Notes under the pieces: model-generated
What the model was told of the DNA's origin: nothing
What the model saw: only the letters and a program-made list of their open reading frames with translations
Databases searched by the model: none
Made by a program: the position numbers and the translations under genes
Origin: Ignisphaera sp.
GTDB taxonomy: Archaea > Thermoproteota > Thermoprotei_A > Sulfolobales > Ignisphaeraceae
DNA length: 33,861 bases
Direction of reading: 5' to 3'
Assembly: GCA_025058535.1 (NCBI GenBank)
Contig: JANXEL010000043.1
Span: 1 to 33,861, forward strand
Shown: piece by piece, positions 17,292 to 19,948 of the stretch
How the letters are laid out: every line of letters begins with the position of its first letter
Numbering within the stretch: the first letter of the stretch is position 1

Positions 17292-17341
17292 TCAGAGTAG
17301 CTCAGCTACATCACTTTTCTCAGAGCCTTTTAAATCATCAT
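17292..17341 (-). ncRNA. C/D box guide sRNA with a likely tRNA target
   Basis: A near-perfect set of boxes on the minus strand: ATGATGA (C, 17341-17335), 11-nt guide TTTAAAAGGCT, CTGA (D', 17323-17320), spacer GAAAA, GTGATGT (C', 17314-17308), 12-nt guide AGCTGAGCTACT (17307-17296), CTGA (D, 17295-17292). The second guide is the exact complement of AGUAGCUCAGCU, which contains UAGCUCAG, the usual tRNA sequence from U8 through the D stem; the D+5 rule would place the methyl group on the base equivalent to G10. It starts 5 nt after the SpeD stop codon and is followed by a T run, so it is probably processed from the SpeD mRNA. Confidence 0.85.
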
Positions 17342-17346
17342 TCTGC

Positions 17347-17790
17347 TTAGTATTGATTTTTTATGGCTTTAAAACTGCTTCTATCTGCATAGTTTACAGT
17401 ATAGTATTTCGGTTTAAGTGTGTTTATAATGTATTCAAACGCCTTCCAAGGATCACTCATTTCACCACATGTATACACGTCCACTGTAGCATATCTGTAG
17501 CTAAACCACGTATGTACTGCTATGTGACTTTCTAAAACTAGCGCTATTACAGAAACCCCACCTTTCTTGCCACCAAAGCTCCAGCTTTTAATCTCAACGA
17601 GAGTCATATTGGCCAATTTCACGGACTCTAGCACAATATTCTTTAATTTTTCTTCATCGCTAGCTATAGCTACATCTATGTCATATAGATTTCCGTACAC
17701 ATGTTTTCCAACTACTCTATCTTCATCAAATGTTTGATTGGTTCCTTCCTGGTTCATTTCAGACAGGCGCCTAACATCCAGCTGTAGCAT
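17347..17790 (-). CDS. speD: SpeD-family pyruvoyl decarboxylase proenzyme (S-adenosylmethionine or arginine decarboxylase)
   Basis: A 147-residue proenzyme. Self-cleavage before Ser88 in VLESHIAVH would give a small beta chain and a pyruvoyl-bearing alpha chain; His93 and Cys108 (VYTCG) are the usual processing and catalytic residues. GKHVYGNLY is the family N-terminal signature. Crenarchaea carry two SpeD paralogs, one an AdoMet decarboxylase for spermidine and one recruited as arginine decarboxylase; sequence by eye does not settle which this is. A TATA box at 17801-17808 predicts transcription from about 17779, after ATG 17790, so ATG 17757 (residue 12) may be the real start. A C/D sRNA follows its stop. 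Confidence 0.9.
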
Positions 17791-18742: not shown

Positions 18743-18793
18743 GTGATGAGGGGACCACGGTCTGAAGTAATGATGTTGAATACTTGTGGCTGA
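18743..18793 (+). ncRNA. C/D box guide sRNA
   Basis: All four boxes fit: GTGATGA (C, 18743-18749), 12-nt guide GGGGACCACGGT, CTGA (D', 18762-18765), 4-nt spacer AGTA, ATGATGT (C', 18770-18776), 13-nt guide TGAATACTTGTGG (18777-18789), CTGA (D, 18790-18793). Predicted targets are ACCGUGGUCCCC, modified at its fifth base U, and CCACAAGUAUUCA, modified at its fifth base A; I cannot place them in rRNA from memory. It has its own TATA-like element and ends 5 nt before the ATG of the DUF1152 gene. Confidence 0.88.
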
Positions 18794-19900: not shown

Positions 19901-19948
19901 TCAGTAACACGGGTTTTCATCATGCTCAGTTACAGCCGTGATCATCAT
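19901..19948 (-). ncRNA. C/D box guide sRNA
   Basis: Both halves are textbook on the minus strand: ATGATGA (C, 19948-19942), 12-nt guide TCACGGCTGTAA, CTGA (D', 19929-19926), 2-nt spacer GC, ATGATGA (C', 19923-19917), 12-nt guide AAACCCGTGTTA, CTGA (D, 19904-19901). Predicted targets are UUACAGCCGUGA and UAACACGGGUUU, each modified at the fifth base, A. The second resembles the UAACACG of the 16S rRNA region near E. coli position 110 for seven bases only. It lies 34 nt after the stop of the winged-helix gene on the same strand, in a convergent gap. Confidence 0.88.

Follow-up and report, generated by a model that had tools for sequence, protein, structure and literature searches.

A short sequence on the minus strand in the genome of a heat-loving archaeon, Ignisphaera, which lies directly downstream of a gene of the SpeD family, raises the question whether it encodes a guide RNA and, if so, which RNAs would be modified with its help. 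The window, i.e., the whole stretch of DNA that was analysed (33,861 nucleotides), is contig 38 of a genome of 1.72 Mb, which consists of 103 contigs and is 94.1% complete. The explanation which we consider best, with a probability of about 0.78, is a C/D box sRNA whose D guide pairs with the tRNA positions 7 to 15–17 and directs the 2'-O-methylation of G10 in many tRNAs.

Boxes and guides were read directly from the sequence and placed by script on the minus strand, in window coordinates. The core of the gene, from the C box to the D box, measures 50 nt (17292–17341), as obtained from direct reading, related loci and a pattern search. It begins with a perfect C box, ATGATGA (17335–17341), followed by a D' guide of 11 nt, TTTAAAAGGCT (17324–17334), a perfect D' box, CTGA (17320–17323), a spacer, GAAAA (17315–17319), and a C' box, GTGATGT (17308–17314), which has one mismatch versus RTGATGA; a D guide of 12 nt, AGCTGAGCTACT (17296–17307), and a perfect D box, CTGA (17292–17295), complete it. 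The minus-strand order, ATGATGA-TTTAAAAGGCT-CTGA-GAAAA-GTGATGT-AGCTGAGCTACT-CTGA, is a compact archaeal layout: the boxes C (RUGAUGA), D' (CUGA), C' and D (CUGA) follow each other as in archaeal C/D box sRNAs, and the guides lie directly 5' of D' and D, with lengths in the range of about 10–12 nt which is given in PMC4644070. A T run, TCTACTTTTTATT, follows the D box and is a possible terminator. A first interpretation, made without database searches and called the sequence-only reading below, had described the quality of the four boxes, the lengths of both guides and the T run in the same way, and our reading and script placement agree with it on these points.

The complete C/D layout, written as a regular expression, was found at three places in the real window and in none of 300 simulated windows of the same dinucleotide frequencies. 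Searching the window with Rfam yielded nothing at gathering scores; the weak matches at the place of the sRNA were all to C/D families below threshold, the best one being sR2 (RF01139) with 22 bits versus a gathering score of 42, which does not place the RNA in that family. A match in Rfam is not a class-defining feature for C/D sRNAs, because the guides differ between families. As far as can be judged from its sequence, 17292–17341 is a C/D box sRNA gene, and it was regarded as a real gene since the same RNA recurs in relatives (see below).

A search with RF00005 detected 41 tRNA places in the genome, including one that scores under the gathering threshold; running ARAGORN on the fetched loci gave 40 different tRNA sequences, of which some could not be named with confidence owing to introns. 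By a strict count of at least nine contiguous Watson-Crick pairs including D+5, the D guide fits 17 of the 40 tRNA sequences; 16 of the 40 have at least 10 contiguous Watson-Crick pairs, and six have 11, the best value. Pairing starts at D+2 and spans tRNA position 7 to 15, 16 or 17. D+5 is then opposite G10, the nucleotide to which the D+5 rule, established for C/D guides, had led the sequence-only reading. That reading would have lost its target had no tRNA shown nine contiguous matches with the D-proximal bases among them; counted from D+2, the 17 tRNAs do show them, all at the same position, and as far as pairing goes one guide may indeed serve many tRNAs. The guide does fit many tRNAs in the segment which that reading named, U8 to the D stem, but one correction is needed: AGUAGCUCAGCU, to which all 12 nt of the guide are complementary, occurs in none of the 40 tRNA sequences found. 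Opposite D+1, at tRNA position 6, the matching tRNAs have C or G, which leaves this base unpaired or in a G-U pair; the T which the genus has at D+1 forms a Watson-Crick pair with none of the 17 matching tRNAs, and this is a point against the proposed target. The genome contains six sites of AGTAGCTCAG, one of which is the sRNA itself, and none coincides with any RF00005 tRNA place.

When 3000 shuffled guides were subjected to the strict test, 44 matched at least one tRNA, with a maximum of 16 tRNAs; none reached 17. In a looser test, which allowed G-U pairs, the D guide matched 19 of the 40 tRNAs, and 37 of 1000 shuffled guides matched at least one tRNA, a single one of them reaching 34 tRNAs, above the real guide. 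Segments of tRNAs are shared, and a guide which matches one tRNA therefore tends to match many. On rRNA the D guide was weaker, with best scores of 8.5 (23S rRNA of the related genome G008) and 7.25 (own 16S rRNA), both only with G-U pairs, compared with 11.25 for a tRNA. A simple script, in which two offsets had been set by hand, assigned the D stems; on this basis, all 17 tRNAs of the strict count have a G10-C25 pair, a pattern that is partly built in, since a guide that fits GCUC presupposes GAGC on the facing side. The two extra tRNAs of the G-U-tolerant list were Arg(gcg), with G10-C25, and Pro(tgg), with G10-U25.

As positive control for the scan served a different C/D candidate of the window, 19901–19948 on the minus strand, whose D guide forms 10 contiguous Watson-Crick pairs with 23S rRNA (from position 2435 of the 23S rRNA of G008). 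Its C, D', C' (ATGATGA) and D boxes are perfect, and the D guide recurs at the loci L055–L058 and L105. Another candidate C/D sRNA, 18743–18793 on the plus strand, overlaps the proposed start of a DUF1152 gene; its D' guide, GGGGACCACGGT, has nine pairs with tRNA-Pro(TGG), and GACCACGGTCTGA recurs in loci of relatives (L053, L060, L063, L116).

The exact D guide was present, by pattern, in four of 60 genomes, among which is the genome of the window itself. For the whole order a strict pattern was used which is looser than the exact guide and forces the boxes and TGAGCTA; it was found in 18 of 214 genomes, or in 10 of the 118 which are at least 90% complete, and its reversed control in none of the 214. 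The pattern is absent from 196 of the 214 genomes, including G001 and G003 of the same genus, both 99% complete, which counts against the preferred explanation. A search of genome_contigs (84,980 species) returned 13 stretches, with titles that were all Ignisphaera, Desulfurococcales, Tiamatella, Thermoprotei or Thermoproteota. The sameness of TGAGCTA in the carriers is no evidence, being forced by the pattern; the unforced letters C at D+2, C at D+10 and G at D+11, however, are invariant in all 18 and fit G7, G15 and C16 of tRNA. At D+12 there is G in 11 and A in seven carriers, fitting C17 or U17, and at D+1 T in 13, G in three and A in two. Copies at one locus are kin, and the 18 carriers are not 18 independent cases.

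The tRNAs of four other carriers were read; of the places listed for each, this covered 24 of 25 in G146, 19 of 19 in G147, 45 of 46 in G101 and 29 of 33 in G011. Watson-Crick pairing across all of the positions 7–16 was observed for 12 of 24, eight of 19, 15 of 45 and 14 of 29 tRNAs, respectively. In G011, D+1 has changed to G, which pairs with C6, and all 12 pairs are formed in nine tRNAs.

In 12 of the 18 carriers the sRNA lies within 60 nt after the end of speD or overlaps it, and in the other six the same D guide is found at other places, together with entirely different D' guides. Four types of D' guide and context were distinguished by eye: the speD group with 12 carriers, G012 with one, genus g40 with three and genus g57 with two. 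A double G10 guide in genus g57 was considered, as the D' guide of G146 (L103) fits positions 7–13 of CGTAGTTTAG with seven pairs (a tRNA with UAGUUU); it was rejected because in G147 (L104) the guide is changed at the base facing A9 and the tRNA segment is unchanged, so that the pairing is broken. The pattern TGATGA-(1 to 7)-TGAGCTA-NN-CTGA, which describes the guide downstream of a C or C' box without mismatch and excludes degenerate boxes, occurred in none of 398 genomes of the phylum; G012, the one known carrier fitting it, is outside that sample.

The gene directly upstream of the sRNA (17347–17790, minus strand) belongs to the SpeD family, according to TIGR03330 (adenosylmethionine decarboxylase, 126.4 bits, cut-off 75.65) and PF02675. 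Its open reading frame ends at 17347 and the C box starts from 17341, leaving the gap of 5 nt after the SpeD stop which the sequence-only reading had noted. This adjacent place and the T run behind the D box point to an sRNA which is processed out of the speD transcript, and the SpeD-family gene is likely to be the source of the sRNA transcript. A promoter of its own was also considered for the sRNA, i.e., TTTTAAA at 17368–17374 (minus strand), which resembles what we take to be the box-A motif and is situated inside speD, 27–33 nt before the C box; G008 keeps TTTAAAG there, the other relatives differ, and it was not counted as evidence. Some C/D genes are less than 25 nt away from protein genes, as stated in a review (PMC7994747). 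The region around the end of speD was read in this genome and in the 10 others of the genus, and the sRNA was present there in nine of the 11; it was absent in G001 and G003. The earlier suggestion that expression may be tied to polyamine synthesis agrees with the position of the gene and with the speD end being kept in 12 of 18 carriers, but not with the six carriers elsewhere, nor with G001 and G003, which possess speD without the sRNA. Carriers outside the speD context count against any necessary link to polyamines, and the link is positional only.

At least two SpeD-like genes were present in 47 of 60 genomes searched; the copies noted here are 17347–17790 and G000:C22:13628-13939. In each speD-linked carrier the single pattern match adjoins the best-scoring SpeD copy. 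A second C/D sRNA, in tandem and downstream of the speD-linked one, was noticed at L054, L055, L056, L057, L058 and L059, i.e., in six of the 11 speD loci which have the first sRNA, the own locus not being among the six. Its layout comprises a C box GTGATGT or similar, a D' guide like AGGCGTCCTAGA, a C' box ATGATGA and a D guide like TTGRTTCCGGCA. The D' guide of L054 has 11 pairs with tRNA-Gly(TCC, CCC) of the genome to which the window belongs and points to about G22 (numbering by hand).

The sRNA could be real and yet do its main work through the D' guide, on rRNA or some other RNA, with the pairing between D guide and tRNA being secondary or serving folding without methylation. The core of the D' guide, like TAAAGGC, is kept within the speD-linked group, and for this reason the D' guide probably has a target and is used. 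The window guide and variants from the speD group, five in all and not every member, were scanned against the own 16S rRNA, the partial own 23S rRNA with flanks, the complete 23S rRNA of G008 and the own tRNAs. Within the scanned rRNA and tRNA the window D' guide reached at most seven contiguous pairs including D'+5, short of the nine applied to the D guide, and had no convincing target. The best lead was the D' guide of G008, which pairs with positions 94–103 of its own 23S rRNA by nine Watson-Crick pairs and one G-U pair; the same 11 letters are present in a stretch beside the own 16S rRNA gene, which is identical in 114 of 120 positions to that part of the G008 23S rRNA. At this site, however, the window guide has seven contiguous pairs only and three further variants have six or seven Watson-Crick pairs, and six carriers keep the D guide despite entirely different D' guides, which makes such a division of labour rather unlikely in our opinion. 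A longer D' match (eight Watson-Crick and two G-U pairs), found in sequence flanking the 23S locus (L082), was dropped because it is inside an open frame of 344 codons and the flank has no Rfam family at gathering scores.

Considerably less probable still is the idea that a kink-turn, made up of the C/D boxes and located in the 3' untranslated region of the speD mRNA, is bound by L7Ae and controls the expression of speD. The 12 carriers at or near the speD end would suit such a switch, but it needs neither the full layout of C, D', C' and D nor a fixed guide, and the other contexts of six carriers argue against it. A C/D-like sequence which arose by chance, with a guide matching tRNA through the shared tRNA segments, would be in keeping with the 44 of 3000 shuffled guides that also match at least one tRNA; the layout in none of 300 simulated windows, and the same RNA in 18 of 214 genomes with a control of zero, render this explanation very improbable.

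According to the preferred reading, a C/D box sRNA for G10 of tRNA, the RNA would probably derive from the speD transcript, at its 3' end, with subsequent trimming. Once expressed and assembled with L7Ae, Nop5 and fibrillarin, it would base-pair through its D guide with the tRNA positions 7 to 15–17, and the complex would be guided to 2'-O-methylate G10 by the D+5 rule. The predicted targets are tRNAs which read UAGCUCAG from U8 on and have G10-C25; the strict count puts their number at 17 of 40 in this genome. A methyl group on G10, where the D stem begins, would be expected to make the corner formed by the acceptor and D stems more rigid at high temperature.

No paper on Gm10 in archaeal tRNA was found among the open-access papers searched; outside this search was the work of Lui et al. 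(2018), which reportedly describes tRNA-targeting C/D sRNA families of Pyrobaculum in a survey of 110 families. Full-length relatives of TIGR01177, which we take to be Trm11, are present in all 11 genomes of the genus, all with scores under the cut-off of the model. Archaeal Trm11 acts on the same nucleotide, G10, but is a protein enzyme for base methylation (m2G10/m22G10) which needs G10-U25, and G10 is known mainly as a base-methylation site in archaea (PMC12247713, PMC7668247), a point against the preferred reading. Examples are m2G10 in tRNA-Trp of S. acidocaldarius and m7G10 in the initiator tRNA of P. furiosus (PMC12247713, PMC7668247). The nearest hint found of a ribose methyl group at position 10 is a tentative, triply methylated residue, 2H-m2,7Gm10, in tRNA-Glu of P. 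furiosus (PMC7668247); tRNA of the Glu type is not fitted by the D guide described here.

Guides for many tRNAs have a precedent, and a summary of such C/D guides is contained in PMC7994747. A C/D sRNA of Pyrobaculum aerophilum likewise 2'-O-methylates a position common to many tRNAs, but its site is C56 in the T loop, the guide is another one and so is the lineage; this Cm56 guide takes the role which the protein Trm56 has in other archaea (PMC6313347, PMC7912444). For the crenarchaeon Sulfolobus acidocaldarius, tRNA-directed guides have also been predicted, for tRNA-Gln (U34, G18) and C50 of tRNA-Gly(CCC), which differ by their positions and by being aimed at one named tRNA each (PMC7668247). 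With the C/D guide in the intron of tRNA-Trp (Cm34, Um39), a C/D RNP methylates tRNA as well, but this guide resides within the intron of its own target, concerns one tRNA only and is directed to sites in the anticodon arm (PMC7994747, PMC6313347). Thus, multi-tRNA C/D guides are already known, as exemplified by Cm56 in Pyrobaculum, and G10 as the target spot looks unusual.

In a wider and decidedly tentative reading, which we put forward as a possibility rather than an expectation, a lineage-specific guide would 2'-O-methylate G10 in nearly half of the tRNAs, those with the strong G10-C25 pair, and would complement Trm11, which acts at G10-U25. On this view, four or more sRNA genes would have come to carry the D guide, either by transfer from one to another or by separate origin; in the Ignisphaera group its production would depend on the speD transcript, and a second sRNA, directed at about G22 of tRNA-Gly, would often lie next to it. 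If this is true, G10, a nucleotide known mainly for base methylation, would also be ribose-methylated, with one RNA serving many tRNAs. The occurrence of one D guide in four gene contexts would then offer a clean case for studying how archaeal guides move and persist, and whether the tRNAs are shared out between guide RNAs and Trm11.
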